A DNA stretch of 64,000 nt, from the NCBI RefSeq assembly GCF_000013445.1, contig NC_007796.1:248001-312000 (forward strand), given 5' to 3'. Both the position numbers and the translations under genes were made by a program. Source of the stretch: Methanospirillum hungatei JF-1 (lineage in GTDB: Archaea > Halobacteriota > Methanomicrobia > Methanomicrobiales > Methanospirillaceae). The notes beneath the pieces were generated by a model. That model did no database searches and was not told the DNA's origin. It saw only the letters and a program-made list of their open reading frames with translations. Positions 5,825 to 31,266 of this stretch are shown here, one piece after another. The stretch's first letter is position 1. Every line of letters begins with the position of its first letter.

Positions 5825-5832
5825 GATTTCCA

Positions 5833-7737: not shown

Positions 7738-7842
7738 CGAATAGGTATATTCTTAAATTTAATGTATATCATATTAATAAATGCAAAAATACTAAAATTT
7801 TTAACACATATTCATATGTATAAAATTTTTTTGGGTTGTATT

Positions 7843-13202: not shown

Positions 13203-13886
13203 TCATGATAATGCTCCGTTTTCCATAGAATATATACGATCTGACATAAAGGAGAGGACATCAGAGTCATGGGAGATGATAATATATGACATCTTTTCTC
13301 TCTTTTTTACTTCCTTAAGTAACCTGAGTATTTGAGCCTGCACTGAAATGTCAAGTCCGGATGTAGGCTCATCAAGGATGATTAGTTCAGGTTTAGTAAG
13401 AAGAATGCGGGCAAGAGCAAGACGCTGTGCCTGTCCTCCCGATATTTCATGTGGATACCGGGAGAGAATCTCCTCATGTAATCCTACTTTATGCAGGATT
13501 TCTGAAAATCCCTGCCTGGGCAAGGTGACGCCTGGGAGGTTGATAAGCCGATTCATTGAGACATTTAATTTTCTGACCGGATTAAATGAACTTCCCGGAT
13601 CCTGAAATAAAATCTGGATCTTTCTTCTCATCTCTTTTCGTATCTTGTTATCTACAGATGAAAGAAGAATTGTCCGAAACCATATCTCCCCTTTATCCGG
13701 TTCTTCAAGCCCGGCTAGAATGCGACTTAAGGTACTCTTCCCACAACCAGACGGTCCACATATTCCTACAGTTTCTCCATCATGCACCATCATGGACACA
13801 TTGGTAAGTATCTGCTGCCACTCTCCAGCCAGGCCGTTTCGATATCGTTTAGATACATTTTTGGCTTCAATCAATACCGATGACAT
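13203..13886 (-). CDS. peptide/nickel ABC importer ATPase (DppF/NikE type)
   Basis: Last gene of a five-gene importer operon on the minus strand. It is 227 residues with Walker A GPSGCGKST, signature SGGQAQRLALAR, Walker B LIILDEPTSGLD and the H-loop IIISHDSDVL. It lacks the C-terminal oligopeptide extension of longer DppF proteins, consistent with the shorter NikE form. It pairs with the ATPase encoded at 13871-14815, whose end it overlaps by 16 bases. Substrate assignment depends on the binding protein at 16.6 kb. Confidence 0.9.
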   Translation of the reverse strand: MSSVLIEAKNVSKRYRNGLAGEWQQILTNVSMMVHDGETVGICGPSGCGKSTLSRILAGLEEPDKGEIWFRTILLSSVDNKIRKEMRRKIQILFQDPGSSFNPVRKLNVSMNRLINLPGVTLPRQGFSEILHKVGLHEEILSRYPHEISGGQAQRLALARILLTKPELIILDEPTSGLDISVQAQILRLLKEVKKREKMSYIIISHDSDVLSFMSDRIYSMENGALS

Positions 13887-14815
13887 CGTATCATTCTTCC
13901 ATTCACCTGTGTAAGTTTTGCAGGCCTTTTATGGCACAACTTTGTTACCTGATAGCACCGGTCTGCAAACCTGCATCCCTCAGGAAGATTGGTCAGTGGA
14001 GGGGCACATCCTGGAATTGGATTAAACCCGTTCTCCGGAAGGCTTTGTATCAGACCTCTGGTATATGGATGAGATGGTGAGGACAGAATTGCATTTGCAG
14101 GACCTGCTTCAACAATTTCTCCTGCATACATGACCACGATATGATGAGCCATAGTATGAGCAAGTCTGATATCATGAGTAATCAGGAGCAAAGTCCTTTT
14201 TTCATGTAAAACTTCTTGTAATGAGGCCTGAATGTCTAGAATTTTTGATCTGTCAAGTCCTTTTGTTGGTTCATCAGCAATTACAAGATCCGGCTCAAGA
14301 GATAGGATGATTGCAGTGACAGCACGCTGGTTCATCCCTCCGGAACAATGACATGGATAAAGCCTTGCAGCCAGTTCAGGATTTGAAAATCCTGCTTTTA
14401 TAAGTGCCTTATGGATGTGTGCCTCTCTCTCTTGTACAGGGACAACTTTATGTGTATCAAGTGGCTGGAACATCTGTTTATAAAGCCGGTAGATCGGATT
14501 GAGTGCCCTATCTGGACTTTGGAACATGATACCAATCTCTTTTCCCCTGATGCTCTGTAACAATCTCTCATCAAGTCTGTAAATATTCTGATTTTTAAAA
14601 ATTATTGTGCCTTCAACCTGTGAATTTTTTGGAAGCAGACGGAGAATTGCATGAGCAACAACAGATTTTCCGCATCCAGACTCCCCGATGATTGCCGTAC
14701 ATGTCCCTTGCATAATTCTACAGGAAAAACTGGATACCGCAGGAATTTTTATTCCATCTGAAAGAAAGGTGATGGAAAGGTTTGAAATGTCAAGTATCGG
14801 ATAAGGAGAATTCAT
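13871..14815 (-). CDS. peptide/nickel ABC importer ATPase (DppD/NikD type)
   Basis: A 314-residue ATPase with Walker A GESGCGKSV, signature CSGGMNQRAVTA and Walker B LVIADEPTKGLD. It has the C-terminal extension of Dpp/Opp ATPases: PYTRGLIQSLP, followed by the Cys-containing CRFADRCYQVTKLCHKRPA that in this family can hold an iron-sulfur cluster. It overlaps the permease upstream by four bases and the second ATPase downstream by 16 bases, so the operon is tightly coupled. Confidence 0.9.
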   Translation of the reverse strand: MNSPYPILDISNLSITFLSDGIKIPAVSSFSCRIMQGTCTAIIGESGCGKSVVAHAILRLLPKNSQVEGTIIFKNQNIYRLDERLLQSIRGKEIGIMFQSPDRALNPIYRLYKQMFQPLDTHKVVPVQEREAHIHKALIKAGFSNPELAARLYPCHCSGGMNQRAVTAIILSLEPDLVIADEPTKGLDRSKILDIQASLQEVLHEKRTLLLITHDIRLAHTMAHHIVVMYAGEIVEAGPANAILSSPSHPYTRGLIQSLPENGFNPIPGCAPPLTNLPEGCRFADRCYQVTKLCHKRPAKLTQVNGRMIRCHRY

Positions 14816-15651
14816 TCAAATACCATCTCCGGTTCATTACTTTCATAAATCATACCTATCCGGGTGATAGCAAGCACCGTTACACACATGCATATCGCAG
14901 GAGGAAGAAACCACCACCACATTTCACGAATAAATCCCCCATGATCAAACGCATCTGCGATCATCTTTCCCCAGCTCTCCATCATGGGATCAGACAATCC
15001 CAGAAATGAGAGTGATGCTTCAGATATCATGGCACTGGCAATTGTGAGCATAAATTTTGGCAGAAGAACCGGGTAAATCACCGGGATAATGTCATGAATT
15101 ATAATTGAAAAAGATGAAAATCCCAGGCACCGGGAAGAAAGGACAAATCCGGAATTACGAATCTGCATAGTCTTTGTCCGTACAACCCTGGCGGTTGTCT
15201 CCCATGAAAACAAACCAAGTACAATGATAAGTATCCAGATGCTGGGATGCAAATATGCTGCAATAAGGATAATCACCGGAATTTTCGGAATAATAAGGGT
15301 GATATCGGTCACTCCCATCATCAGGTCATCAACCCATCCCTGGAGAAAACCACTTACAATTCCAATTGAGGTTCCGATAAATAACGAGAGAATACCGGTG
15401 AAAACGCCAATTATGAGAGATATCCTGGTTGCGTAAATAAGGAGTGTGAGAACATCATATCCCATGTCATCAGTTCCGAGGATATGATTCTCATCAGGTT
15501 CTCCATACGGCGAAAAACGGATATCCGGACTATATGGTGAGATAGTCTTGGGAAAAATGGCCGCATATACAAATATTCCAAGGATAATGATGCATAATGT
15601 CGGAGAATATCCCATTTTTTTTAACCATGAAGGGAAAATTACCATGGTCAT
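14812..15651 (-). CDS. peptide/nickel ABC importer permease (DppC/NikC type)
   Basis: A 279-residue inner-membrane permease with about six hydrophobic segments. The N-terminal region contains the family's PYSPDIRFSPYGEPDENHILGTDDMG stretch (conserved LGTDDMGYDV), which is diagnostic for DppC/OppC/NikC. The EAA-loop region lies around SEASLSFLGLSDP. It overlaps both neighbours by four bases. The substrate is nickel or small peptides. Confidence 0.9.
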   Translation of the reverse strand: MTMVIFPSWLKKMGYSPTLCIIILGIFVYAAIFPKTISPYSPDIRFSPYGEPDENHILGTDDMGYDVLTLLIYATRISLIIGVFTGILSLFIGTSIGIVSGFLQGWVDDLMMGVTDITLIIPKIPVIILIAAYLHPSIWILIIVLGLFSWETTARVVRTKTMQIRNSGFVLSSRCLGFSSFSIIIHDIIPVIYPVLLPKFMLTIASAMISEASLSFLGLSDPMMESWGKMIADAFDHGGFIREMWWWFLPPAICMCVTVLAITRIGMIYESNEPEMVFE

Positions 15652-16616
15652 GAACTTCTCCTGATTCGGGGATCTATAATAAGTGACATGATATCTGCAG
15701 TGATATTGGCAATAATGACAAAGATTGCAATGATAAGGAGTGATCCGGTCAGTATCGGATAATCCCTGGCAAGGATTGCGTCATACATAAGGCTCCCCAT
15801 TCCATTCAGGGAAAAGACAATCTCGATAAAAAGTGCACCTGAAAAAAGAAATCCAAAGTCAAGAGCGATTAGTGCTATCAGTGGAATTATTGCATTTTTT
15901 CTGATATGATGGAGCAATATATTCCGTTCAGAAATACCCAGTGACCGGGCAAACTGTGGATAAAGGAGTTCCTTTTCGGTTAATACCGCACCTCTCATGA
16001 TAAGAATATTTCTTGAAGTATAAAATGAGATCAAAACGAACGTTGGCAATATGAGATGGTAGAGGATACTTTGAAGATTATAGGTATCGTAAAACCCTTT
16101 GAAAGGGAATAAACCGAGATGGTAGACAAATAGGACCAGGACAAGAAGACTGAGAAGATAGGGTGGGGTTGAAGATATGACAAGAGCTATTAAAGATATT
16201 GCATCTGACCACCATTTTCCACTCTGAAAACCCGCTCGTGCTCCAAGGGATATACCAATCCATGCACCGATAATAATGGAGGGAATGGTATACAAAAGAG
16301 TCCACCATGCTCTGCTGATGAGAATTTCAAAAACAGGCCCATGCATATGATAGGAGTATCCAAGATTTCCATGCATGATCTGGAGACAATATATGAGAAA
16401 CTGTTCATGAAGCGGGGTATCAAGCCCAAATGCTGCTCGTAATGAATCAATAGTACTCTGTGACAGGTAAATATCTTCTCCAACCAGGTTCGAGACCGGA
16501 TCACCGGGCATCATTCTGGGTAGGAGAAAAACTATCAACAGAATGCAGAAAAAAGAAAGGATATATCTGAGCAATTTTCGGGATAAAAAAATACCTGCCG
16601 GGTGGATCATCACCAT
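15648..16616 (-). CDS. peptide/nickel ABC importer permease (DppB/NikB type)
   Basis: A 322-residue permease with an N-terminal helix (LLRYILSFFCILLIVFLLPRM) followed by the DppB-typical MPGDPVSNLVGED. Further family signatures are LGLDTPLHEQF and the EAA-loop region ARSLGISERNILLHHIRKNA. It is the first permease of the operon, 19 bases after the binding-protein gene, and overlaps the NikC-type gene. It presumably forms a heterodimer with that protein. Confidence 0.9.
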   Translation of the reverse strand: MVMIHPAGIFLSRKLLRYILSFFCILLIVFLLPRMMPGDPVSNLVGEDIYLSQSTIDSLRAAFGLDTPLHEQFLIYCLQIMHGNLGYSYHMHGPVFEILISRAWWTLLYTIPSIIIGAWIGISLGARAGFQSGKWWSDAISLIALVISSTPPYLLSLLVLVLFVYHLGLFPFKGFYDTYNLQSILYHLILPTFVLISFYTSRNILIMRGAVLTEKELLYPQFARSLGISERNILLHHIRKNAIIPLIALIALDFGFLFSGALFIEIVFSLNGMGSLMYDAILARDYPILTGSLLIIAIFVIIANITADIMSLIIDPRIRRSS

Positions 16617-16635
16617 AAAAAAAGGCCTGGATGGG

Positions 16636-18219
16636 TCAGGCAGAGGATTTTACACCGGTGAAGGTGAATTCATTCATGATCCCATACAGTGGATTTGAGT
16701 ACCAGCCAGTAATCTTCTTGTTGTATGGGGTTATATCATTCTTCCAGTACAGAGGAATCCCTGGCAGATTTTCTGCATAATACTCCTGAACTTCCTTTGC
16801 ATACCCGTTGAGTAAGGTCTGATCAGTTGTACTCAGGATATCATCACAGAGTTTGAGGAAGACTTCATCATCAACGGTATGGAGGACACCCTGCCCCGTT
16901 CTCCTGCTGTCAAAATATCCCGTTGCCCATCCGGCATGCATAAGCATTCCCCATGGTGTGGTTCGTGTCAGTGTGATATCATAGTCAAGTTTGTCTTTCA
17001 TCTCAAACCATGTATTATCTTCAACTGTTCTTACCTCAACTCCGATTCCTGCTTTTTCAAGGTACTCTTTAATAAGTTCTGCCTCACGGGCATAGGAATT
17101 TCTAATTAATAGGTCAAGAGTAATATCTTTCCCATCTGCTGCCTCTATGATACCATTTCCGTCAGAATCTTTATATCCTGCTGAATCAAGGGTCTTCTTG
17201 GCAGTTTCGAGATTATATTCCATTGGTTTTGTCTGGATATACCCATCCATGGCCGGAGGAACAAAGCCCCTGTTCGGCACTAATCCATATCCTAGTGTTG
17301 AAATATCAACTAGTTCCTGGTAATTTATGGCACTACTGACTGCTTCTCTGAATGCTGGATCAGACATTGGCTCCCTTTTCAGGTTAAATCCTAAAAATGT
17401 GAGCCCACTTGTTGGTTTTTCCAGCATTTCAAAATTGCCGGTTTTTCTGAGTGAGTCAATGGCTGCATACGGGTATGATGATGCATACTTCCAGTAGGTG
17501 TCCATTATACCGCTTTCCAATGCCTTTGCCGCTGCATCTTCATTTTTAAACCAGCTTATCTCGACCGTTTCATAATCTGATATCTTTCCCTTCCAACTTG
17601 GATTTCTCTTAAAAATCACTTTTCCTGCATTTAAATCAACATTATCCAGATAATAAGGTCCCGCTCCGACATACGGGCCGGTACTGGTAAATTCATTCGG
17701 GTTTTCAATAGATTCCCAGATATGTTTTGGGAGAATACTATACGAGGTAAATTCAAGGGCAAGATTTGTGTATGGTTTGTTGAATTTGAAGGTTACTTTA
17801 TTACCGTCAACCTGTGTGTCAATTAGTGTCTCTCCAATCCAGCCTGCATTCGGAATACTGGTGCCATACATCTGAATAGAGAAAGCAACATCATCTGCCG
17901 TTACTGGTATTCCATCACTCCAGAACTGGTTATCCTTGATAACAAATGTCCATTCTGTATTATCAGGTGATACCTCAAAGTGGTCTGCTAGCAGGCCGAT
18001 TAATTTTCCTTTCTCATCCATCTGCATAAGGGGTGGATTTGAAAGATGGTTAAAAATGCCGAGGGTATAATCGCCAATAAATGCTGGTGACTTGACTTCA
18101 TTCGTGGTTGCGATACGAAGTATGGCGTCATCTGCAATTACTCCCATAGAACAGCAGATTGTGACAAAGCTCAAAATAAGGAAGAGCAAACTCCAGATTT
18201 TGTGATATGTTTCTCTCAT
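16636..18219 (-). CDS. extracellular solute-binding protein, family 5 (peptide/nickel)
   Basis: A 527-residue binding protein with a signal/anchor sequence (WSLLFLILSFVTICCSMG). Family-5 hallmarks are present: the N-terminal YTLGIFNHLSNPPLMQMDEKG, FVIKDNQFWSDGIPVTADDVAFS and the FREAVSSAINYQEL region. The C-terminal half has TPWGMLMHAGWATGYFDSRR, a region like that seen in NikA-type nickel binders, so nickel is a reasonable guess given the many nickel-related genes, but peptides cannot be excluded. It is the first gene of a five-gene operon. About 80 AT-rich bases upstream separate it from the MITE. Confidence 0.85.
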   Translation of the reverse strand: MRETYHKIWSLLFLILSFVTICCSMGVIADDAILRIATTNEVKSPAFIGDYTLGIFNHLSNPPLMQMDEKGKLIGLLADHFEVSPDNTEWTFVIKDNQFWSDGIPVTADDVAFSIQMYGTSIPNAGWIGETLIDTQVDGNKVTFKFNKPYTNLALEFTSYSILPKHIWESIENPNEFTSTGPYVGAGPYYLDNVDLNAGKVIFKRNPSWKGKISDYETVEISWFKNEDAAAKALESGIMDTYWKYASSYPYAAIDSLRKTGNFEMLEKPTSGLTFLGFNLKREPMSDPAFREAVSSAINYQELVDISTLGYGLVPNRGFVPPAMDGYIQTKPMEYNLETAKKTLDSAGYKDSDGNGIIEAADGKDITLDLLIRNSYAREAELIKEYLEKAGIGVEVRTVEDNTWFEMKDKLDYDITLTRTTPWGMLMHAGWATGYFDSRRTGQGVLHTVDDEVFLKLCDDILSTTDQTLLNGYAKEVQEYYAENLPGIPLYWKNDITPYNKKITGWYSNPLYGIMNEFTFTGVKSSA

Positions 18220-20279: not shown

Positions 20280-21218
20280 ATGGGTATCATGTCAGATGCA
20301 ATAATAGTCAAAGACCTTACCAAACATTTTGGTTCCCTCACTGCTGTAGATAATATCTCATTTTCTGTTAGAAAGGGAGAAATCTTTGGATTTCTTGGTC
20401 CGAATGGAGCAGGCAAAACGACGACGACACGAATGATCACTGGTATTATAAAACCAGATGCCGGGGATATTCAGATATTTGGCGACAACATGGTTACCGC
20501 TCCTCTTCAGGCAAAACAGAAATGTGGTGTGGTCCCTGAAACGTCAAATGCATATCCTGATCTTACTGCCTGGCAGAATCTGATGTTCATGGGAGAGGTA
20601 TTCGGACTTTCTGATGCGTATGCCAGGAGACAATCAGAAACCCTTCTCAGGGCATTTGAATTAACTGAACATGCCGGGAGAAAGGTTCAGTCTTTTTCAA
20701 AAGGCATGAAACAACGCCTGGTTCTCGCTATGGCCATTCTCCATGAGCCAGAGGTACTCTTTCTTGATGAACCGACCAGCGGTCTGGATGTCTCAAGTTC
20801 CCGCCTGATTCTCTCAATGCTCCGGGAGATGAATACGCGGGGAGTGACGATATTTCTTACTACTCATAACATGGATGAAGCAAATAATCTATGTCACCAG
20901 GTGGGTATCATTAGGTCAGGAAAGCTTATTGCGATCGATTCTCCAGAAAAACTCAAGAATACAATAGATAAACTTCACCAGGTGGAAGTAAGTTTTGAAC
21001 AGGAAATATCTGAAGACCTGCTCAGAATTATCCCGGGAATAAAGCAGATGTCTCATATTGGAGACAAATGGAAGATCTCTGGCGATAATAACGATGCACT
21101 CATCCGCTCACTGGTTCGTTTGAGTGAACGGGAAGGGCTGACGATTATTTCTTTACATACTCTCGCCCCAACACTTGACGATGTATTTCTCCAGCTGACC
21201 GGAGGGCAGTATTCATGA
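20280..21218 (+). CDS. ABC-2 exporter ATP-binding protein
   Basis: A 312-residue CcmA/DrrA-type ATPase with Walker A GPNGAGKTT, signature SFSKGMKQRL (SKGM in place of SGGM), Walker B VLFLDEPTSGLD and the H-loop LTTHNMDEAN. The C-terminal extension of about 90 residues is typical. ATG 20280 or 20289 are both possible starts. It ends by overlapping the permease start. It is under the HxlR/small-ORF promoter and exports an unknown compound. Confidence 0.9.
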   Translation: MGIMSDAIIVKDLTKHFGSLTAVDNISFSVRKGEIFGFLGPNGAGKTTTTRMITGIIKPDAGDIQIFGDNMVTAPLQAKQKCGVVPETSNAYPDLTAWQNLMFMGEVFGLSDAYARRQSETLLRAFELTEHAGRKVQSFSKGMKQRLVLAMAILHEPEVLFLDEPTSGLDVSSSRLILSMLREMNTRGVTIFLTTHNMDEANNLCHQVGIIRSGKLIAIDSPEKLKNTIDKLHQVEVSFEQEISEDLLRIIPGIKQMSHIGDKWKISGDNNDALIRSLVRLSEREGLTIISLHTLAPTLDDVFLQLTGGQYS

Positions 21219-21970
21219 ATACCCGGATTATTGGTGAACAGGTTCTACGAGCATGGGCTGTTGCAAAGAAAGATATCAGAATTTATTACTATAAACCCCC
21301 GGTGCTGATCTCCGGCATACTGATGCCGGTATTTCTCTATCTGGCATTTCTCATGGGGAGCAAACCGATATCCATGTCTTTTTTAATATCCGGACTGCTT
21401 GGAATGACATTGTTCTTCACATCAACCGCAGTTTCCCCTGTCATATTTCCCTGGGAAGGACAGGCAAAAACTTTAGAGCGGCTTGTCTCCTGCCCGATAT
21501 CTCCTGAAGCCATCATCCTTGGGGATTTGATAGCATCCTCGGTATTTGGTATTGCAGTAACCTTGGTTGCACTTATAATTGGTCTAATACTCGGAGCATC
21601 GGTTTTGAACTTTTTTTTACTCATCTGTGTAATTATTCTTGGAGCACTATGTTTTTCAGCAATCGGAATTCTGTTATCTGTTCCGCCAACTGCTATCCCC
21701 CAGAATATCATGCTCTTATCAACTCTGGTGAAATTTCCCCTGATATTTATATCCGGAATTTTTATGCCGGTTGATCAGCTCCCTCCGCTGGGCCAGATAT
21801 TAGCCTTTATTTCACCCCTTACATACTTTACCGATATTGTACGGTTTTCGTATACCGGTGCAGGAAGTTTTCCGATTAGTTTTGATCTTGGAATGTTGCT
21901 GGCATTCACAATTATCCTGATTCTGGCAAGCGTGGTTCTCCATAAAAAAACCATGCCGCTTCGGATATAA
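21215..21970 (+). CDS. ABC-2 exporter permease
   Basis: A 251-residue membrane protein with about six hydrophobic segments and the ABC-2 motif region FISGIFMPVDQLPPLGQ near residue 180. It starts within the last codons of the ATPase gene (ATGA overlap). An N-terminal amphipathic stretch (VAKKDIRIYYYKPP) precedes the first helix. It pairs with the upstream ATPase. A short AT-rich gap separates it from the convergent cooC gene. Confidence 0.88.
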   Translation: MNTRIIGEQVLRAWAVAKKDIRIYYYKPPVLISGILMPVFLYLAFLMGSKPISMSFLISGLLGMTLFFTSTAVSPVIFPWEGQAKTLERLVSCPISPEAIILGDLIASSVFGIAVTLVALIIGLILGASVLNFFLLICVIILGALCFSAIGILLSVPPTAIPQNIMLLSTLVKFPLIFISGIFMPVDQLPPLGQILAFISPLTYFTDIVRFSYTGAGSFPISFDLGMLLAFTIILILASVVLHKKTMPLRI

Positions 21971-22000: not shown

Positions 22001-22777
22001 TTAGGAACTTTTTATTCCTGCGATGATATTCTGGATAACCGGCATAACAGACTGTGATGAACCGGTTATCTCCTTCCCGGCAAGTCCTGCTGACAGGAGG
22101 TTCTGATCAACAGGGATTTCTCCGATGATTTTGTCAGCGGGGAGATCTTTTCTCATCTGGGTACTGATTTCCTGTGTGACTTTATTGAGAACAAAGTACA
22201 TCGGAAGACTCAGGGACGCGGCCATATCTGCAGCTTTTTTTGCGAGAAGAACAGACTCATACGAAGGGTCAAGGACCATCAGAACAGCATCAGCTCCTTC
22301 CTCAACTCCCCGTCCAAAGTGTTCGAGACCAGCTTCAGTATCGATGATCACCATCTCGTTATCCAAGAGTTTGAGGTTTTTCAGAAACTGTTTGGCTACA
22401 AAACCCATGGGACAGGCACATCCTTCACCGGCATGATGTATCTTTCCGATAGAAAGAAGTCTCACGGTACCGTTTTCTGCAATACAGGCAGGGGGAATGT
22501 CCTGAAGCTTCCATTCCTGGTCAAATAACTGTAGATTCATAATGCCCTCAGAACTCTTCATGGCTGACATCATCTTCCCCAAAAGTTCCTGTTTTCCTCC
22601 CATCTGATCCATAAGATCAGTCGGATGGTTCACTCCAAGGAACCGGTGAAGTCCGAGATTTGATTCATCGGTATCTACGACCATGACTTTTTTTCCATCT
22701 TTTCCATAATACTCTGCAAGAAGAGCGGTCAGAGTGCTTTTTCCGCTGCCTCCTTTTCCACAAATAAGTATCTTCAT
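22001..22777 (-). CDS. cooC: CooC-like nickel-insertion ATPase
   Basis: A 258-residue MinD/SIMIBI-class ATPase. The P-loop GKGGSGKST is at residues 7-15, with the signature lysine before the GKS. Further features are VVDTDESN (35-40) and the CooC hallmark Cys-x-Cys, GCACPMGF, with Cys120 and Cys122, which binds nickel at the dimer interface in carbon monoxide dehydrogenase maturation. It is the last of six codirectional genes with an FmdE protein, an importer and a methyltransferase. No CO dehydrogenase is nearby, so it may serve another nickel enzyme or the imported compound. Confidence 0.85.
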   Translation of the reverse strand: MKILICGKGGSGKSTLTALLAEYYGKDGKKVMVVDTDESNLGLHRFLGVNHPTDLMDQMGGKQELLGKMMSAMKSSEGIMNLQLFDQEWKLQDIPPACIAENGTVRLLSIGKIHHAGEGCACPMGFVAKQFLKNLKLLDNEMVIIDTEAGLEHFGRGVEEGADAVLMVLDPSYESVLLAKKAADMAASLSLPMYFVLNKVTQEISTQMRKDLPADKIIGEIPVDQNLLSAGLAGKEITGSSQSVMPVIQNIIAGIKSS

Positions 22778-22812
22778 ATTACATGCAACTCCTATATTTC
22801 ATGTGATTTACA

Positions 22813-23649
22813 TCATTTTTTGGGGTACTGATTCGAATCCCACCACATACATACCCGTGTGGTCATGCCATTTTCGATGAAAGACTGTCCGTTCATGTAA
22901 ATTTTATCCTTGAGATATTCTTTGATAAGAGGATCATAATTATCAGAACACCCAATCTGCCGCCTCATTTCATAGACTGCATCGTCCATGGATTGATACT
23001 TTTTCTCATATTTCATCTCATGCACCGTCATATTCGGGTAAATCCCTTTTTGATACAGCACATTATACAAAACATCAGATTTCGGACCATGTGAGTAAGA
23101 TTCGTTATGTATATCCGGCCATAACCGTTCCATGTGCCGTTCCCAGGGTGTTGTTCCTGCAAACCAGAAAAGCCATATCTGGCCAGAAGAAACAGCGAGC
23201 ATTTTGTCAATGGCAGCACTAATATCGGGCATTCCAAGAGAGTACGATGCAACAATGATGTCAAATCTTTCCGTAAGATCTGAAGAAGGATCGACATCCT
23301 CCCATCGTTTTGGAACAATAGTAAGATTATGTACCTGTAATTCAGCAATCTGGTCCTTCATGACTTCAATCATTCCGGGAGACGGTTCTATGGCAGTGAC
23401 ATGTGCTGCCCGTTCTGCAAACGGAAAGGCAAGTGTTCCGGGACCTGCACCGATATCAAGAATTCGGCTTTCATGGGTTATCGGAAGTCGTGATAATACC
23501 TGCTCTATCCGTTCAGGGTTTTCCCGTGACATATTCAGAAATTCAAGGGCACGCTCTTTTGAATTCCAAAGAGAGGCACAGTCTCCGACTTCTTTGAGTC
23601 TGCTCCCTGCTTCATACTGTTCTTTCCATATGTGAGCCCAGTCTATCAT
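22813..23649 (-). CDS. class I SAM methyltransferase in importer operon
   Basis: A methyltransferase of about 278 residues. Motif I LDIGAGPGTLAFPFA, motif II VTAIEPSPGM and FDIIVASYSLGMPD are clear. The later WLFWFAGTTPWERHMERLWP stretch is shared in layout with the paralog at 2.5 kb. I prefer the ATG at 23649 (MIDWAHIWKEQY) to a TTG four codons earlier. It lies 21 bases after the importer ATPase and 35 bases before cooC, strongly implying a role in the same pathway, perhaps methylating a ligand or corrinoid. The substrate is unknown. Confidence 0.85.
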   Translation of the reverse strand: MIDWAHIWKEQYEAGSRLKEVGDCASLWNSKERALEFLNMSRENPERIEQVLSRLPITHESRILDIGAGPGTLAFPFAERAAHVTAIEPSPGMIEVMKDQIAELQVHNLTIVPKRWEDVDPSSDLTERFDIIVASYSLGMPDISAAIDKMLAVSSGQIWLFWFAGTTPWERHMERLWPDIHNESYSHGPKSDVLYNVLYQKGIYPNMTVHEMKYEKKYQSMDDAVYEMRRQIGCSDNYDPLIKEYLKDKIYMNGQSFIENGMTTRVCMWWDSNQYPKK

Positions 23650-23682
23650 TTTAATCGTCAAATTCGATAAATTAATGTTTGT

Positions 23683-24453
23683 TTATGCTTCAGAAGGGCT
23701 GAGGCCAGGAACAATGCACCGCACCCCTCCGACCATTCCCATCATAACAGGAAGACCGTATACGTCTTCAATAATCTCCGGTGTAACGGCATCATATGAA
23801 CCATGGAAGTGAATATACCCGTCTTTTAAAAAGATGAAACGGTCAGCATATCGCAGTGCCTGATTGAGATCATGCATGGTCATCACTGCAGCAATTCCAT
23901 GTTCTCTTACAATTCCTGCAATTGTTGAAAGGATATCCACCTGGTTTTTCAGATCAAGACTACTGGTAGGTTCGTCAAGGAGTAAGATCCGTGGTTCCTG
24001 GACAAGTGCACGAGCAATGGCGATCTTCTGCAGTTCACCCCCGCTCATCTCATCGATGTACGAGAGCCGGAGATTATCCATTGACAGCCGGCTGAAAATG
24101 GCATCAACAATACGGAGATCCCGATCACTCACATCCCAACCGATATGAGGCCTTCTGCCGAGAAGAACGGCATCAAACGCAGTGAGTCTTCCGGTCTCAA
24201 CCCGCTGGGGAACATATCCGGCCCGACGGGCAATTTCAAGCGTTTCAAGTGTTTGGATCTCTGATCCATCCAGATAAATATGGCCCTTTTTCGCGTTAAG
24301 TATCCTGTTCAGGCATTTGAGAAGTGTGGTCTTCCCTACCCCGTTAGGACCGAGAATCGCCATTATTTCGCCATGATTTACTTCAAATGCAATATCATGC
24401 AGTACATCGTGATTCCTGTACAAAAAACCGAGTTCCTGAACATTCAGAATCAT
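23683..24453 (-). CDS. FecE/BtuD-type ABC importer ATPase
   Basis: A 256-residue ATPase with Walker A GPNGVGKTT, signature MSGGELQKIAIAR and Walker B ILLLDEPTSSLD, then TMHDLNQALRYAD. This is the iron-siderophore/cobalamin/heme importer class. It overlaps the permease gene upstream by four bases. With the permease and binding protein it forms a complete importer inside the FmdE-CooC operon. The cargo could be a metal chelate or tetrapyrrole. Confidence 0.9.
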   Translation of the reverse strand: MILNVQELGFLYRNHDVLHDIAFEVNHGEIMAILGPNGVGKTTLLKCLNRILNAKKGHIYLDGSEIQTLETLEIARRAGYVPQRVETGRLTAFDAVLLGRRPHIGWDVSDRDLRIVDAIFSRLSMDNLRLSYIDEMSGGELQKIAIARALVQEPRILLLDEPTSSLDLKNQVDILSTIAGIVREHGIAAVMTMHDLNQALRYADRFIFLKDGYIHFHGSYDAVTPEIIEDVYGLPVMMGMVGGVRCIVPGLSPSEA

Positions 24454-25529
24454 CGCTTATACCCCCTGATGATAAGATAAATAAATACCGGAGCCCCCAT
24501 AAAGGCTGTAAGGACTGCAACAGGAAGGACATATGGGGCAACAATAAGCCGTGCAACGGTGTCAGATGTCAGGAGCAGGATACCTCCCATTACGCACGAT
24601 CCGGGGATCAGGTACCGCTGATCATCACCGATGATTCGTCGTACCATATGGGGACAGACAAGGCCGACAAATCCGATGACTCCAAGAAATGCAACAAGAA
24701 CGGCGGTTATCATTGCAGAAATTGTCATTCCAAACAACCTGACTTGTTCCACGTTCACCCCAAGGCCTTTTGCAGTCTCATTTCCCGCATCAATCGCATT
24801 GTAATTCCACCGGTTTAAGAGAAAATAAATGCAGGCAAGGGTGACAAGGACTGACATAAGGCCGAGTTCAGACCAGTTTGCACGGCTTACATCACCAAAT
24901 GTCCAGAATACAACAGCGGCTAGTTGTGTATCTGATGCAAAATACTGCAGAAACATGGTCCCGGCAGTAAATAATGAAGATAATGCTACACCAGTGAGGA
25001 CCATTACTTCAGGGGATGCTCCCCTAATTCGGGAGATCATAAGAATTACTCCCGTTGCAATCATACAAAAGATGAATGCAGATATGGTGGTGATGTACGG
25101 GTTATTTATGGTAATCGGGTTAGCAATGGTGGATTGTATCTTTCCTGTCCCTAAAAATATCACCGATACTGCAGCTCCAAATGCACCTGCATTGGATATT
25201 CCCAATGTGAATGGCGATCCCAGGGGATTTCTGAGAATTGACTGCATCGCAACCCCTGCCACAGAAAGACCAATACCTGCAATAATTGCGGTCAATGCCT
25301 GTGGAAGCCTGATATTCCAGATGATTGCATCGTATTTATGATTCACATTTTGTCCAAAAAGTGTCATAAGAACATCATATGGTGGTATGGAGACAGCACC
25401 AACTGAAATGGATATGATAAACAGAAAGAATAGGAGAATAATTCCAAAAACAATCCAGAGGTATTTTATTCTGACATAACCGAGATAATCAGCTGGGATT
25501 CTTCCATCAGCGACATGCACATCTATCAC
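24450..25529 (-). CDS. FecCD/BtuC-type importer permease
   Basis: A 359-residue permease with about ten hydrophobic segments. FecCD-family landmarks are WNIRLPQALTAIIAGIGLSVAGVAMQSILRNPLGSPFTLGISNAGAFGA in outline (conserved RLPQAL and RNPLGSP), IGFVGLVCPHMVRR near the C-terminus, and the final ALPLAVL-like PVAVLTAFMGAPVFIYL. It is located 36 bases after the binding-protein gene and overlaps the ATPase gene. Confidence 0.92.
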   Translation of the reverse strand: MIDVHVADGRIPADYLGYVRIKYLWIVFGIILLFFLFIISISVGAVSIPPYDVLMTLFGQNVNHKYDAIIWNIRLPQALTAIIAGIGLSVAGVAMQSILRNPLGSPFTLGISNAGAFGAAVSVIFLGTGKIQSTIANPITINNPYITTISAFIFCMIATGVILMISRIRGASPEVMVLTGVALSSLFTAGTMFLQYFASDTQLAAVVFWTFGDVSRANWSELGLMSVLVTLACIYFLLNRWNYNAIDAGNETAKGLGVNVEQVRLFGMTISAMITAVLVAFLGVIGFVGLVCPHMVRRIIGDDQRYLIPGSCVMGGILLLTSDTVARLIVAPYVLPVAVLTAFMGAPVFIYLIIRGYKR

Positions 25530-25565
25530 CTCCGGAAAAAAAGGAAATGTGGTTGTTCATCGACA

Positions 25566-26693
25566 TCAAAGAGAGATTTGAGAGAATCCCATGTTTTTAT
25601 ACTGGGAGTTAATTTTGTCCAGTGGAGATGAACCAAGGAATTTGGTCATGATCTCATTTGCCTTTGCTTCAGGATCAATATCTGCAAACTTCTCTGGATA
25701 GACGATCTTTCCAATGTAGTATGCATCTGCAAGAACATTCTCATAATTCGTGTTATAGAAATTGTATGGGAGAACTCCGTATACCTTTCCTTCTTTCACT
25801 GCTGTTAATCCCTGAAGGGCCGGATCATTCTTCAATTCTCCAATTGCTCCTTCGCTGTCCATCTGTAGCGTTCCAACATCCATGAACAGGAATTCAGGAT
25901 CCCAGTCAACAATTGCTTCTTTTGCAACATCAGCATGTTGAGTCCCCATTTTTCCTGCAACATTCTTGATATTCAGCCATAGGAATGGTGGATATGCCGG
26001 TTCAGTTGAAATAATTCCATGAGCTCCTGAATAACTGACACCTCCGACATATGCTGTCTTTTGTTCAGACTCCGGAATATCCTTAGTTCTGGATTTAAGA
26101 TCAGAAATGGTCTCCTCAATGTAAGCAATCAGTTCATTTGCACGGTCTTCTTTACCAATTACTTCTCCCATTAAACGAAGTCCACCAAACATCTCGGCCT
26201 GTTCAGCAGCCGTTCTTAGTGACCCATAAGGAAACATAACAACGGGGATATTCGTCTTTTCGGTTAATTTATCCCCTTCGACAGAATTTGTTGCAGATGG
26301 CTGACCTGAAGCTCCGGTCTTAAAAATTAACTGGGGGGCTAGAGCAATTACCTTTTCAGGATCATCTTTTCCTCTGAATTCACCGAATAAAGGGTAATCC
26401 TTAAACTGTGGGTTGAGGAGTGCATATCCACGAGCATCCATGGCCTGCGGTTCTTTCTCAATACTATCAACACCCACAATCAGATCCTGTCCATCAAGGT
26501 AGGTAAGATACCGGAGACATCCGGAGCCTGAACAGATAACTTCTTTTACCTCTGTTGGAATGGTGACCGTTCTGCCAAATCCATCGGTAATTGTTCTCTC
26601 TGCTCCATTTGAATCAGTAGCCATGCATGCTGGTATAGATACAAGAGAAACCAGCATTAAGATTGCAACCAGAATTTTTGTCAGGTTTTTCAT
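25566..26693 (-). CDS. periplasmic-type binding lipoprotein of FecB/BtuF class
   Basis: A protein of about 375 residues with a signal peptide (ILVAILMLVSLVSIPAC) and a Cys that may be lipid-modified. The peripla_BP_2 fold is indicated by TITDGFGRTVTIPTEVKEV at the start, DPEKVIALAPQLIF and the final DAYYIGKIVYPEKF. ATG 26693 is preferred to GTG 26705. It is 28 bases downstream of the secreted FmdE gene, so it may receive its ligand from that protein. Cobalamin, siderophore or another metal chelate are possible. Confidence 0.88.
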   Translation of the reverse strand: MKNLTKILVAILMLVSLVSIPACMATDSNGAERTITDGFGRTVTIPTEVKEVICSGSGCLRYLTYLDGQDLIVGVDSIEKEPQAMDARGYALLNPQFKDYPLFGEFRGKDDPEKVIALAPQLIFKTGASGQPSATNSVEGDKLTEKTNIPVVMFPYGSLRTAAEQAEMFGGLRLMGEVIGKEDRANELIAYIEETISDLKSRTKDIPESEQKTAYVGGVSYSGAHGIISTEPAYPPFLWLNIKNVAGKMGTQHADVAKEAIVDWDPEFLFMDVGTLQMDSEGAIGELKNDPALQGLTAVKEGKVYGVLPYNFYNTNYENVLADAYYIGKIVYPEKFADIDPEAKANEIMTKFLGSSPLDKINSQYKNMGFSQISL

Positions 26694-26733
26694 ATGATCA
26701 CTCACATTTTTTTGTATGCAGGTGGTAATGCAA

Positions 26734-27840
26734 TTACAGCATCCCCAGGACTTTGTACGGGTTATTCCCGGCTGTCTTCAATTTTGTCAAATTTGCCTCG
26801 TCGATATCAAACTCCTTAAGCGTAGTGATGACTGATTCAGGTTTGTCAATATAATCCATCATGCCGATATCCTGCACCAGCTTGGGAGCCCAGGATGGTC
26901 CGGTCCAGTTTGCAACTCCAACTTCTTCGCTGATAGTATCAAAGTCAAACCCAAGGGCAACTCCTTTTCCTTTCTTGGCTGCATCATTCCATCTGATGAT
27001 TATTCCTGCAGGACGGGTCCCATACTTTGCCTTCAGGGCGGCTTCATCATCTGGGCTTAATGCCATAACAAACATACTGTTTTTACCAGGGGTACTATCC
27101 CAGATCATCTGGAATGCATCTTCCTTGCACCAATTCGGGCATCCGATGTCGATGTACGTTTCAGCCGACTGATTCGTGATCGGCAGGTTCTTCTGAATAT
27201 ATTTGATTATCATATATCCACTGGTAACACCCGGACAGAGATGATCATGAAATGCTGCAGCGTTCATGAAATCATAGGTTGCTCCTGCAGCCCAGACATT
27301 TGAGAGTCCTACAAGCGAGAACTCGTTCCCGCCAAATTTTTTCTTGTTAAAGGTGGTATTCCCTTCATTTGGGTTTGCAAGGAGTGTGTCCAGATTTGCA
27401 CTCATGAGCGTAACCTGTCCGAACGCCTTGTCTGCCGGAAGAGCTGTCCGTTCCTCTGTGCTCATGGTGTAGAACGCTGCATCCGGTTCCATATATGCAG
27501 CAAGTCCTGAATCCTTGTTATAAAAGTAGAACCAGAGCCCTTTCCAGTCCGGGCGGTTTACCTGGTAAAGATTATTGTCACCATTTCGAAGACCGGACAT
27601 ATCAGTAAGGCCGGAAAGAGCACGTTCTGTGGTCTTTCCTTTCACAATTGCATGGCCGGCATTGGTAAGGGCCAGGATATTGTCTGCTCCCGGTTCAAAT
27701 TTCAAAAGATCCATACCTACTTCCGCTGCCCGCGACCCAAGGTCATACATGAGATCATCTTCAGCTGTTGCTGATAATGGTATAACCAGGCAGCAGAATG
27801 CTATCAGGAAGATTATCGTTCGTTTCATTGTATTCCTCAT
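26734..27840 (-). CDS. secreted FmdE-family protein
   Basis: A 368-residue protein with a clear signal peptide (IIFLIAFCCLVIPLSATA). The FmdE domain lies in the second half: FHDHLCPGVTSGY with His198, His200 and Cys202, and IGCPNWCKEDAF with Cys234 and Cys238, then an extended tail. FmdE/FwdE domains occur with formylmethanofuran dehydrogenase, but this version is exported and heads an operon with a FecBCD importer, so an extracellular metal- or cofactor-binding role is more likely. The N-terminal 190 residues are not recognised. The start ATG at 27840 or a few codons later both fit. Confidence 0.8.
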   Translation of the reverse strand: MRNTMKRTIIFLIAFCCLVIPLSATAEDDLMYDLGSRAAEVGMDLLKFEPGADNILALTNAGHAIVKGKTTERALSGLTDMSGLRNGDNNLYQVNRPDWKGLWFYFYNKDSGLAAYMEPDAAFYTMSTEERTALPADKAFGQVTLMSANLDTLLANPNEGNTTFNKKKFGGNEFSLVGLSNVWAAGATYDFMNAAAFHDHLCPGVTSGYMIIKYIQKNLPITNQSAETYIDIGCPNWCKEDAFQMIWDSTPGKNSMFVMALSPDDEAALKAKYGTRPAGIIIRWNDAAKKGKGVALGFDFDTISEEVGVANWTGPSWAPKLVQDIGMMDYIDKPESVITTLKEFDIDEANLTKLKTAGNNPYKVLGML

Positions 27841-27888
27841 TCATCCGGAATGATTGCCATTCATTAAGAAATCCGATGTCTGTTTTAA

Positions 27889-27928
27889 TAAAGTAATTTT
27901 AAGCCACAATCCGTCTTAATTTACTTTA
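27889..27928. promoter_or_regulatory. inverted repeat between divergent FmdE genes
   Basis: Arms TAAAGTAATTTTAAG (27889-27903) and CTTAATTTACTTTA (27915-27928) are complementary apart from one register slip, with 11 bases between. The site sits 50 bases upstream of the six-gene operon and 210 bases upstream of the divergent FmdE gene. It could be an operator for a metal-responsive regulator such as a DtxR- or NikR-type repressor; no regulator gene is adjacent. The remainder of this 297-base gap is AT-rich and holds no gene. Confidence 0.4.
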
Positions 27929-28137
27929 CAAATTTTAAAGACATCTTAATTAATTATACGATTATTATGAAATTTAAAACTATTGAAAATAATTTCATAA
28001 ATTTTCACAATTGAGTAACTATTTTTGATAGATTTTCTTTCTTTATCTCAATTTTTTCAATTTAAAGAGTCACTCATAATACAATTCAGACACAAAAACG
28101 ATGGATATATGTGTTTCCACCGATAACCTAATATCAT

Positions 28138-28770
28138 ATGTGTATTTCATCATCCGCCGGAGAACCCGCCCGGGGCAATTACGGGTCATATGAACAGGCA
28201 GTTGAGTTTCATGGACATTCATGCGGTGGACTTGCATCCGGCTATCGGGTCGCTGTTGCTGCGCTGAAAGCACTCGGAGTAGAGCGTCCAAAAGATGAAG
28301 AACTGGTAGCAATCGCAGAGACCAATGCCTGTGGTGTTGATGCCATCCAGTTCATTACCGGATGCACGGCAGGCAAAGGAAATCTCATCATTCATGATTA
28401 TGGAAAACATGCGTTTACTTTTTACTGCAGGAAGAGCAACAAAGCCGTTCGTGTTGTGACCAGTCTTGATGGATTCCTGCCTGAAGAGATGAATTCGCTT
28501 AGACCAAAGGTGTTCTCCGGCCATGCAACAGAGGAAGAAAAAGCACGATACCAGGAACTTGCTCATCAGGGTGTTCATGCAATACTTTCAGCACCAGAAG
28601 AGAAAATTCTGAAGATACAATTTGTTGATATGCAGCCACCCCAGAAAGCGAGGATATTTCAGTCAATTCCCTGTGAATGCTGTGGTGAGATGGTAGCCGA
28701 TGCAAAAACCCGCGAACTTGATGGAAAGCGGGTGTGCATGCCGTGTTATCTTTCAGCTACGAATCAATAG
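28138..28770 (+). CDS. FmdE-family protein with C-terminal zinc ribbon
   Basis: A 210-residue cytoplasmic FwdE/FmdE-type protein. The metal motif FHGHSCGGLASGYR has His25, His27 and Cys29 (the usual CPG is CGG here); ETNACGVDA (Cys65) and FITGCTAGKGN (Cys76) follow. The end carries CECCGEMVADAKT and VCMPCY, a four-cysteine zinc ribbon as in FwdE. It may act with formylmethanofuran dehydrogenase, but no fwd/fmd genes are in the window. Divergent placement from the secreted FmdE operon suggests a shared pathway. Confidence 0.85.
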   Translation: MCISSSAGEPARGNYGSYEQAVEFHGHSCGGLASGYRVAVAALKALGVERPKDEELVAIAETNACGVDAIQFITGCTAGKGNLIIHDYGKHAFTFYCRKSNKAVRVVTSLDGFLPEEMNSLRPKVFSGHATEEEKARYQELAHQGVHAILSAPEEKILKIQFVDMQPPQKARIFQSIPCECCGEMVADAKTRELDGKRVCMPCYLSATNQ

Positions 28771-28895
28771 TTTTTCCCCTATAATCACTATTTTAAAAAG
28801 AATTGGAATTATAATCAAAGGTTTTTTATGTCTCATCAATTAAATTTATTTTTATCTAATCCAAAATAATTGTGGTTATTTCGTGGACATATGAT

Positions 28896-29501
28896 ATGAA
28901 CAATAATAGAGTAATCAATGAGAAAATAATTCGAGGTACACCTTTCCAAAGTTTTTTCCAATCCGTCGGAAATGAAAAAAAGATAAAAGATCCTGCGGTT
29001 TCTCCAGTCATTGGAATAATGCTTATGCTTATTGTCACCGTGATTCTTGCAGCGATAATATCCGGTTACGTTGGTGGAATGTCAGAGACAAAAAGTAAAC
29101 CTCCACAATTAGTTTTACAAACCGAGTTGGTAAAAGGTGATTATGTTAACGTTTCAATGACTGTATTATCAGCAGGGAATGGGATACCCACACGAGATTT
29201 AAAGATCATAACATCATGGACTTCAGGATCATATTCTGGTGGAAATATTACAGTACCCGGTTTTAAATATCCCCTGGGGCTCGTCCCAAGTAGAGGAAAC
29301 CCATTAGTTGAAGATTTTGGTAATTATACCCTTCTAGGCGGAACAAAAATGATTGTAAATAATACGGATGGAATTGAGGCTTTTTTCGGGGATCAATATG
29401 CACTGGTCGATGCCGGAGGTATTGTTGATATAAAAATCATTCATATTCCATCACAGTCCACAATTTACAACCAAGAGTTCATTATTGAAGGAGATTACTG
29501 A
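28896..29501 (+). CDS. archaeal type IV pilin-like protein
   Basis: A protein of about 201 residues. After a charged leader (NEKKIKDPAVSPVIG) comes one long hydrophobic segment, IMLMLIVTVILAAIISGYVGG, the archaeal pilin N-terminal domain processed by EppA-like prepilin peptidases. The rest is a hydrophilic beta-rich domain. The leader is unusually long (about 35 residues from ATG 28896; GTG 28872 is a longer alternative). It forms a pair with the pilin that starts at its stop codon. Confidence 0.8.
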   Translation: MNNNRVINEKIIRGTPFQSFFQSVGNEKKIKDPAVSPVIGIMLMLIVTVILAAIISGYVGGMSETKSKPPQLVLQTELVKGDYVNVSMTVLSAGNGIPTRDLKIITSWTSGSYSGGNITVPGFKYPLGLVPSRGNPLVEDFGNYTLLGGTKMIVNNTDGIEAFFGDQYALVDAGGIVDIKIIHIPSQSTIYNQEFIIEGDY

Positions 29502-30025
29502 TGACAACGGATTCAGGGGTCTCGCCTGTTATTGGCGTTCTTCTCATGTTAACTTTGACCTTAATTATTGCTGCGATTGTGAATAGTTTTGCCGGAGGAC
29601 TTGTGGATACCAAAGAAAAACCTCCTTCGGCTACTTTGCAGGCCACTTTTCATCAAAATCGCATTGCTGATCCCAACAATGCCAGTCTTTTGATTACTCA
29701 TGTTTCTGGTGATCCATTACCTGTATCTGATATCTCAATAATTTTAAGGCCTACCCGGACTTTTGGTGATGATGCAGAGAATAATTTTATAGAAATAGGC
29801 AAGGCAAATATTACAAATAGCAGAACTTATTCAGAAACATGGGCAAATGGGATAACATCAATGAAAGTTGGAGATACTCATGGTGTTTTTGGTGATACAA
29901 ACATCTCAAAATTAAATGGTAAATATGATCTCATGGCCGAAAAATATCAAGGAAATACGGTTTATCTCGAATTTTATTATGACCGAAACCTCATTGCCAA
30001 ACCTGAAGTTCTGATTCAGGGATAA
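29501..30025 (+). CDS. archaeal type IV pilin-like protein
   Basis: A 174-residue pilin. The leader is very short (MTTDSGVSPVIG), followed by VLLMLTLTLIIAAIVNSFAGGLVDTKEKPP, the class signature. It begins at the stop codon of the preceding pilin (TGATG). The remaining domain is not recognised. Such pairs occur again at 48.8-50.0 kb on the other strand and probably make heteromeric surface fibres. Confidence 0.85.
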   Translation: MTTDSGVSPVIGVLLMLTLTLIIAAIVNSFAGGLVDTKEKPPSATLQATFHQNRIADPNNASLLITHVSGDPLPVSDISIILRPTRTFGDDAENNFIEIGKANITNSRTYSETWANGITSMKVGDTHGVFGDTNISKLNGKYDLMAEKYQGNTVYLEFYYDRNLIAKPEVLIQG

Positions 30026-30030
30026 AAAAA

Positions 30031-31266
30031 TTATTTTTTTCCCACAGCAACCAGTCCATATGGGTGAGCGATAACCTGTACCCAGGTAAAACCGATATCC
30101 TGTAACAGGATCTCTAACTCCTCTTTTGTATACGCTGCCTGAACTGAGGTTTGAAACCCTTTTTTGATCTCCGGCCCCTTACAACTATCGAGCATGAACT
30201 GGTAGATCTCTGGTGACAGATCCCTTCGGAGATCACTCACACGTAACTCCCCGCCTGGTTTTAAGACCCTGAATATCTCTGAAAAAACCTTTCCCGGATC
30301 TTCCCATTCATGCAGGGATCCGTTTGAAAACGCAAGATCAAATGAATTATCTGCAAATGGCATAGAGAGGGCATTTCCTTCATGATAGATTGAACGGTCA
30401 GAAAGACCATAATCCTTGCTGTTCTTCTCTGCCATACGAATCATGGCAGGACTTATCTCAAGGCCGGTCAGGTGAGTTTTTTTTGTATGTTTCAGCCATT
30501 CTAGACCAAAGTACCCGGGTCCAGGACCAATTTCAAGAGCACTATCTCCTGGTTTTGACGCCCGGATCAGTTCCTCAACCGGGAGATGCCCGTTATCCCG
30601 AAGCCCTCTTTGCATATGGTCATACTGCTCTACGGTAATTTCATCTTGTATTCCTTCTGATGTTTCTGGTATTCTGGGTTTTAATGTCATTTGTTCCTCT
30701 TTTATGTCTGTTTCATGTGAATGTGCATATCGTCCATCAACAACTTCTTCCAACCTGAGCAGTCTGCCGTTTCGTCTTTGGATGAGCGAGATCCGATTCT
30801 GACTTCCTGTTTCCCGGAATGTTCTCAGTGATGAGGTGAAACTGGCAGTATCATGTACGCCTGAAAACCGTGTACAGAGGTCAGCAAACTGTTTTTGTTC
30901 ATCAGGTGTCAACCTGGAAAGACCGGATTCGAGAAATCCATAGATCTTTTCTTCAGTAGAAAGGATCCATTCCTCACCTTTTTCAGTAGGTATCACCTGA
31001 ATACTCCGTCTGTTCTCTGTATCAGGAACGCGTCTAACATACCCCTCCCGCTCAAGATAATTGACCAGGTCTGTAGCAGAGCTGGGGGATATCTCAAGCA
31101 TTCCGGCAATATCTCCCATACAAATCCTGGAGAAATATGATGAGTAGAGTATCTCAATGGCTCCCGGGCTGAGAAGGTTTTTTCTCCCTTTATTTGTTCC
31201 AAAGATCATACTCATGACCGTTGAAACAAATCCCAGGGAGAGCCGTAATCTGGATGTCGGATCCAT
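30031..31266 (-). CDS. MarR-family regulator fused to SAM methyltransferase
   Basis: A 411-residue fusion. Residues 1-150 form a MarR winged helix: ICMGDIAGMLEISPSSATDLVNYLEREGYVRR in outline, then the wing RVPDTENRRSIQV. Residues about 215-411 are a UbiE-type methyltransferase: ALEIGPGPGYFGLE, LTGLEISPAMIRMAEK, MPFADNSFDLAFSNGSLHEW. A charged linker joins them. A methyltransferase in the same chain as a repressor suggests a sensor whose ligand is the methylation substrate, or autoregulation. A palindrome covers the likely promoter. It is convergent with the pilins. Confidence 0.85.
   Translation of the reverse strand: MDPTSRLRLSLGFVSTVMSMIFGTNKGRKNLLSPGAIEILYSSYFSRICMGDIAGMLEISPSSATDLVNYLEREGYVRRVPDTENRRSIQVIPTEKGEEWILSTEEKIYGFLESGLSRLTPDEQKQFADLCTRFSGVHDTASFTSSLRTFRETGSQNRISLIQRRNGRLLRLEEVVDGRYAHSHETDIKEEQMTLKPRIPETSEGIQDEITVEQYDHMQRGLRDNGHLPVEELIRASKPGDSALEIGPGPGYFGLEWLKHTKKTHLTGLEISPAMIRMAEKNSKDYGLSDRSIYHEGNALSMPFADNSFDLAFSNGSLHEWEDPGKVFSEIFRVLKPGGELRVSDLRRDLSPEIYQFMLDSCKGPEIKKGFQTSVQAAYTKEELEILLQDIGFTWVQVIAHPYGLVAVGKK

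Follow-up and report, generated by a model that had tools for sequence, protein, structure and literature searches.

A six-gene operon of Methanospirillum hungatei JF-1 with a secreted FmdE protein, a FecBCD-type importer, a methyltransferase and a CooC-like ATPase: a candidate module for metal acquisition

A packed set of six genes in the genome of the archaeon Methanospirillum hungatei JF-1 was analysed as a candidate module for the capture, import and delivery of a transition metal. It lies in a window of 64 kb (NC_007796.1, positions 248001-312000), and gene coordinates are given as window positions unless they are marked as genome positions. The six genes are located on the minus strand and run from 27840 down to 22001. 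In the order of transcription, they encode a secreted FmdE protein of 368 aa (FmdE-sec, 26734..27840), a FecB-type substrate-binding protein of 379 aa (25566..26705), a FecC-type permease of an ATP-binding cassette (ABC) transporter with 359 aa (24450..25529), a FecD/E-type ABC ATPase of 256 aa (23683..24453), a class I methyltransferase dependent on S-adenosylmethionine (SAM) with 282 aa (22813..23661) and a CooC-like P-loop ATPase of 258 aa (22001..22777). The gaps along this order amount to 28, 36, -4, 21 and 35 bases, the negative value being the overlap of the permease and ABC ATPase genes. FecB and the methyltransferase may start at an internal ATG (codon 5), and the start of the methyltransferase is probably at 23649. 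A convergent ABC-2 transporter pair (20280..21970, plus strand; Pfam), which is co-conserved in Methanospirillum, marks the downstream boundary with its end at 21970. On the other side, a cytosolic FmdE protein with a dksA/traR-type zinc finger is encoded divergently (28138..28770, plus strand; Pfam FmdE with 156.9 bits and zf-dskA_traR; PDB match 2gvi with E=3.2e-21). An earlier note on this DNA had described a packed six-gene operon with a divergent FmdE/zinc-ribbon gene, which was borne out by the list of open reading frames, the sequence and Pfam for every family.

The importer is of the FecBCD type, with adjoining genes for a Peripla_BP_2 protein, a FecCD permease (301.6 bits, E=7e-90) and an ABC ATPase (ABC_tran). 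The substrate-binding protein matched PDB 2etv over its full length (E=3.4e-70) and is a probable lipoprotein, judging from an IPAC lipobox-like motif. Among NCBIfam models, those nearest to the ATPase were heme, corrinoid and Fe-dicitrate ATPases, with every score below the cut-off. The same scan gave no specific family for CooC, the methyltransferase or either FmdE protein. As no genes for fmd/fwd catalytic subunits adjoin and the neighbours are transporters, a methyltransferase and CooC, a formylmethanofuran dehydrogenase operon was rejected.

FmdE-sec starts with a signal sequence, which is followed by an N-terminal region of ∼190 residues; the FmdE domain (Pfam PF02663, 61.5 bits against a cut-off of 22.9) lies at the C-terminus. 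In the alignment of its homologues, H198, H200, C202 and C238 were invariant in all 57 sequences and form an H-x-H-x-C motif with a distal Cys. They align with His15, His17, Cys19 and Cys55 of 2GLZ, which hold zinc or nickel in that structure (PMC2954224). The AlphaFold model of FmdE-sec had a pLDDT (predicted local distance difference test) of 93.8. Foldseek gave convincing matches only to 2glz, 2gvi and 3d00 over ∼160 alignment columns, the best one being 2glz (E=4e-5, probability 1.00), while the N-terminal domain had no solved relative among the PDB matches. A plasmid search with FmdE-sec gave no match. In Methanosarcina loci, including L170 and L165 (genomes G454 and G281), FmdE-sec is duplicated within one chain of ∼690 aa with two repeats. 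These duplicated forms lie between CofD-like and phosphoribosyltransferase/diphthamide-synthesis-like genes with no importer nearby.

The CooC-like ATPase belongs to the CbiA family of Pfam (CooC/MinD/ParA type). Its best PDB match was CooC1 (3kje, E=4.3e-19), to which it is similar over the full length, with the metal-binding CxC aligned. It has the P-loop CGKGGSGKS and the CxC-bearing metal motif GKIHHAGEGCACPMG. The pattern GKIH..[GR]EGCAC[PSA]MG occurs in each of the 45 distinct, sufficiently long members of the clade and is missing in two distinct CooC paralogues of the M. hungatei genome. In the maximum-likelihood tree these two paralogues, one from each locus of carbon monoxide dehydrogenase (CODH), were split from the 45 members with a support of 100/99. 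One CODH is found at genome position 1444342 with its CooC at 1449136, the other at genome 798453-800204 with CooCs at 800542 and 801345. The CooC of the window is more than 500 kb away from any CODH gene of the genome. Given this distance, the CooCs that the CODH loci have of their own and the separate clade, a CODH-linked CooC was rejected; the protein is a CooC by family and not by CODH partnership, as judged from sequence. Thus, the earlier note, which had named a nickel-insertion ATPase, was right about the family, but its clade is not linked to CODH.

The methyltransferase (Pfam Methyltransf_25) has a Rossmann methyltransferase domain with motif I LDIGAGPG, which places it in class I, and shares the N-terminal signature (I/T)DW..xW with its family in an alignment of 19 members. 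NCBIfam scores stayed far below the cut-offs for CpaM (49.1 vs 180 bits), CbiT (36.7 vs 78.3) and BchM (34.6 vs 158.9), and an identity as one of these corrinoid/tetrapyrrole methyltransferases was rejected. This bears on a tetrapyrrole or corrinoid uptake system, in which FecBCD would import a nickel or cobalt tetrapyrrole such as a breakdown product of F430 or of a corrinoid, the methyltransferase would modify the macrocycle and CooC would handle the freed metal. Such a system is in keeping with the nearest NCBIfam models for ATPase and permease, some of which describe importers of heme and corrinoids (each scoring below its cut-off), with a weak PDB match of the methyltransferase to CbiT-like 2yxd and with CbiK, CbiZ and a ChlI/D-FecB-FecC block 20-40 kb from the operon in the window. 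CobN, ChlI/D or CbiK genes are also found near FmdE-sec in three loci (L041, L078 and L079). It is nevertheless considered unlikely: the methyltransferase matches are those of a generic Rossmann enzyme, and a search for homologues of CobN, ChlID and CbiK within 10 kb of CooC gave no match at any of the 29 loci of the clade, nor do the six genes themselves include one. Cobalt or a tetrapyrrole as the cargo is less supported for the latter reason.

The whole arrangement is conserved in close relatives. In M. stamsii (L040/L088) and in a metagenome-assembled genome (MAG) of the Methanomicrobiales (L039), the gene order is unchanged over the six genes, the divergent FmdE gene and the ABC-2 pair, and the proteins are 72-89% identical, which indicates that the operon is more than a chance assembly. 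An HxlR gene follows the ABC-2 pair in L040/L088; the L039 contig stops earlier. In a second genus of the family (G047), only the methyltransferase and CooC remain paired (70 and 75% identity), and the contig stops soon afterwards. Outside Methanospirillum the order varies, while the association persists. Among 393 genomes of the phylum, FmdE-sec was present in 77 (E<=1e-20) and the window-type CooC in 104 (E<=1e-30). When coordinates were compared, both lay within 10 kb of each other in 13 of the 77 FmdE-sec-positive genomes, from four families (G000, G149, G013, G066, G192, G208, G218, G239, G300, G398, G446, G450 and G326), with ∼1% per genome expected by chance when a genome of 2-3 Mb has one or two CooC genes. 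In 14 genomes, which were partly picked for visible linkage and of which related ones are not independent, 14 of 20 FmdE-sec cases had a FecCD or SBP_bac_5 gene within 10 kb, against 1.4 expected; for the CooC clade the figure was 19 of 26, against 1.9 expected. In view of this choice and relatedness, P values for the linkage are not to be read at face value. The co-occurrence of secreted FmdE with CooC that the earlier note had proposed as a check was thus found. As for gene order, the set recurs beyond the genus, but its exact order is not kept there.

The composition of the recurring set was evaluated in maps and from Pfam assignments of the neighbours. At these loci, import is represented either by FecBCD or by an SBP_bac_5 protein together with permeases of the OppB/OppC type and ATPases. 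Methylation is represented by a member of the window methyltransferase family, by an O-methyltransferase or by a TrmO domain; in loci of ANME-2 (anaerobic methanotrophic archaea), the TrmO domain is fused to cytosolic FmdE. Loci may additionally encode a flavin reductase, a P-type ATPase or a Band-7 protein. Of 30 short CooC loci, one per genome, 12 have the methyltransferase beside CooC, 9 a flavin reductase and 16 an importer gene. FmdE-sec, SBP_bac_5, CooC and TrmO are consecutive in several f22 genomes (L143-L147), and L149 has the order FmdE-sec, SBP_bac_5, CooC, flavin reductase, methyltransferase, SBP_bac_5, TrmO, OppB, OppC. In four ANME-2 related loci (L053, L052, L054 and L063), an operon comprises a TrmO-FmdE-zinc-finger fusion, a flavin reductase, FmdE-sec, SBP_bac_5, OppB, OppC and two ATPases. 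Fusions of FmdE with a tRNA methyltransferase have been reported for some Methanosarcinales and Archaeoglobales and were interpreted as a matter of formylmethanofuran dehydrogenase (PMC11237513); in the ANME loci of this analysis, FmdE-TrmO-type fusions occupy importer operons.

In a Clostridiales MAG (L047), a short gene and then FeoB come after FmdE-sec, and pairing of FmdE-sec with a P-type ATPase is also seen. As it is found beside FecBCD, SBP_bac_5/Opp, FeoB and P-type ATPase genes, FmdE-sec accompanies several unrelated classes of metal importers. The FeoB gene and the flavin reductases, a family that includes an archaeal ferric reductase, favour iron. They fit the uptake of an iron siderophore or iron chelate with reductive release, in which the CooC clade would be an ATPase of another role, for instance in iron-sulfur or redox processes; FecBCD importers typically serve ferric siderophores. 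Strict anaerobes, however, encounter mostly ferrous iron, the CooC family and its CxC motif are linked to nickel in the characterised member, and SBP_bac_5/Opp importers serve nickel chelates and metallophores besides peptides. An iron system is considered unlikely.

Taken together, the operon can be considered as a module for the capture, import and delivery of a transition metal or its chelate, with a probability of roughly 0.58. The set of genes and their families, the signal for secretion, the conserved metal ligands and the conserved linkage are read from the sequence, while the identity of the metal, the order of events and the roles of the methyltransferase and of the CooC clade as a chaperone are inferred. 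Outside the membrane, FmdE-sec would bind a metal, as the ion or as a chelate, via its H-x-H-x-C...C site and present or load it. FecB, the FecC permease and the ATPase would import the chelate. In the cytosol, the SAM-dependent methyltransferase might alter the chelating ligand or otherwise aid release, and the CooC-type ATPase might take over the metal on its CxC motif and deliver it in an ATP-dependent manner. The presence of CooC and the heavy nickel need of methanogens favour nickel, which is the most likely metal at slightly less than even odds, the remainder being shared by iron, cobalt or another metal.

Several observations weigh against this module. Neither the metal nor the ligand can be read from the sequence, and the FeoB linkage in the Clostridiales MAG points to iron rather than nickel. 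Many copies of FmdE-sec, in Methanosarcina and in several Methanomicrobiales, have no nearby importer and have unrelated neighbours, e.g. CofD and diphthamide-synthesis homologues. The exact operon order is limited to Methanospirillum, the choice of the 14 linkage genomes tempers the enrichment found in them, and a genome-wide search with a conserved upstream block (see below) revealed no link of the operon to NikR. The earlier note had suggested uptake and processing of a metal complex or tetrapyrrole, perhaps containing nickel. Its first part is strongly supported by the conserved transporter context and the four invariant ligands of FmdE-sec, and nickel is plausible from a CooC with a CxC motif, the metal itself being only presumptive. 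The tetrapyrrole part was weakened by the lack of chelatase homologues in the 29 loci mentioned, although three FmdE-sec loci do have one nearby.

The intergenic region between the divergent genes spans 297 bases. An inverted repeat in it, which had been pointed out in the earlier note, exists as a perfect 10-bp pair (27965-27974 and 27991-28000). It was equalled in ∼10% of dinucleotide shuffles of this stretch (25% GC), and its second arm is lost in the alignment with the 94%-identical locus of M59 (L037), the closest relative. It was therefore rejected as a significant element. The DNA alignment of Methanospirillum loci revealed a conserved AT-rich block of ∼50 bp (27935..27983) as a candidate promoter or local operator. 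It includes the consensus AGTTATA-N16-TATAACT, which is imperfect in this genome. When tried genome-wide as an operator for NikR or another regulator, this pattern was not enriched and had fewer matches than the reversed control. Only one other close match was found in M. stamsii, at the start of a gene which we take to encode a STAS-domain anti-sigma-factor antagonist. NikR was present in all 12 genomes tested. Scans of the region for bacterial-type promoters and terminators stayed at chance level, as expected for an archaeal host.

The genome has eight strong FecCD genes and five SBP_bac_5 genes; six of the former and all of the latter are located within genome 208-326 kb, a range that contains the window. 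The operon is therefore part of an island of metal and corrinoid transport, which also holds the CbiK, CbiZ and ChlI/D homologues and several transposases. In such a transporter-rich island linkage arises easily, and the operon could be a FecBCD importer with passengers in an accidental neighbourhood. This is very improbable since CooC is again found linked to the methyltransferase, to importers and to FmdE-sec at unrelated loci of other families.

A gene for a MarR-type DNA-binding domain fused to a methyltransferase (30031-31266, minus strand), assigned via its homologue in L039, is also conserved beside the locus in M. stamsii. Genes with an archaeal type IV pilin N domain recur beside FmdE-sec loci of Methanomicrobiales (28872-30025 in the window; L041, L078, L079 and L081). 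Genes for biosynthesis of the iron-guanylylpyridinol (FeGP) cofactor are found at 5803-9360 (plus strand; NIF3/HcgD-like, ThiF/HcgE-like, HcgF and HcgG), although HMD ([Fe]-hydrogenase, PF03201) had no match in the genomes of M. hungatei or M. stamsii. A reverse transcriptase with an RVT_N domain (44035-45054, minus strand) lies in a transposase-rich stretch and is probably a fragment of a group II intron.

Another function considered was that methylation and transport serve to detoxify a toxic metal or metalloid or to confer resistance to it. This reading would draw on the methyltransferase, the nearby MarR-methyltransferase genes and HxlR regulators, the exporter-like ABC-2 pair downstream and a heavy-metal P-type ATPase at some CooC loci. 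The ABC system of the operon is, however, of the importer type with a substrate-binding protein, and the ABC-2 pair is convergent and outside the operon, which makes detoxification a highly improbable function.

The module for metal capture, import and delivery may extend beyond this genus. Tentatively, and with odds clearly on the lower side, the methane-cycling archaea of the Halobacteriota might share a pathway of metal acquisition with exchangeable importers (FecBCD or NikA/Opp). In it, a dedicated CooC clade would act as a metallochaperone coupled to the importer, a metallophore would be modified by a dedicated methyltransferase or a TrmO-like enzyme, and secreted FmdE would be the extracellular metal binder. 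Methanogens and anaerobic methanotrophs have an unusually high need for nickel and cobalt, and little is known of how these are captured from sulfidic surroundings and delivered internally. If a CooC clade is coupled to importers and not to CODH, metal delivery would be uncoupled from a single target enzyme. The long-unexplained FmdE family would have a likely role in extracellular metal handling, and the gene set is concrete and testable.

According to the earlier note, no system with this set had been described. Searches of the open-licence literature in PubMed Central for FmdE with CooC, tetrapyrrole, nickel, metallophore or TrmO gave no description of it, and the CooC-importer-methyltransferase association seems to be undescribed. 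The association of FmdE with transporters is not new, as most genes of the FmdE family were reported in 2010 to adjoin genes of metal-ion transporters (PMC2954224). Import of metal chelates by ABC transporters is likewise known already; the distinct CooC clade and the methyltransferase as conserved partners seem to be new.

The core fold and the four metal ligands of the solved FmdE proteins (2GLZ, 2GVI and 3D00) are all present in FmdE-sec. It differs in being secreted and in its additional N-terminal domain, and the zinc finger that two-domain members have is absent from it. With CooC1 (3kje family), the CooC of the window shares full-length similarity, a deviant Walker A motif with signature lysine and the CxC in the same place. 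Unlike CooC1 of CODH maturation, its clade has no CODH linkage, its own signature GKIHxxGEGCACxMG and a linkage to importer and methyltransferase. NikABCDE/Opp-type importers with SBP_bac_5 proteins replace or accompany FecBCD at CooC-clade loci of other archaea; in the window, this class is found outside the operon as a separate copy ∼4 kb downstream (13203-18219, minus strand; SBP_bac_5 protein at 16636-18219). NiuBDE of Helicobacter pylori belongs to the FecBCD type, with binding protein, permease and ATPase as in the operon. It is an ABC transporter that imports nickel and cobalt (PMC5140060). To such importers, the operon of M. hungatei adds a secreted FmdE protein, a methyltransferase and a CooC-like ATPase.

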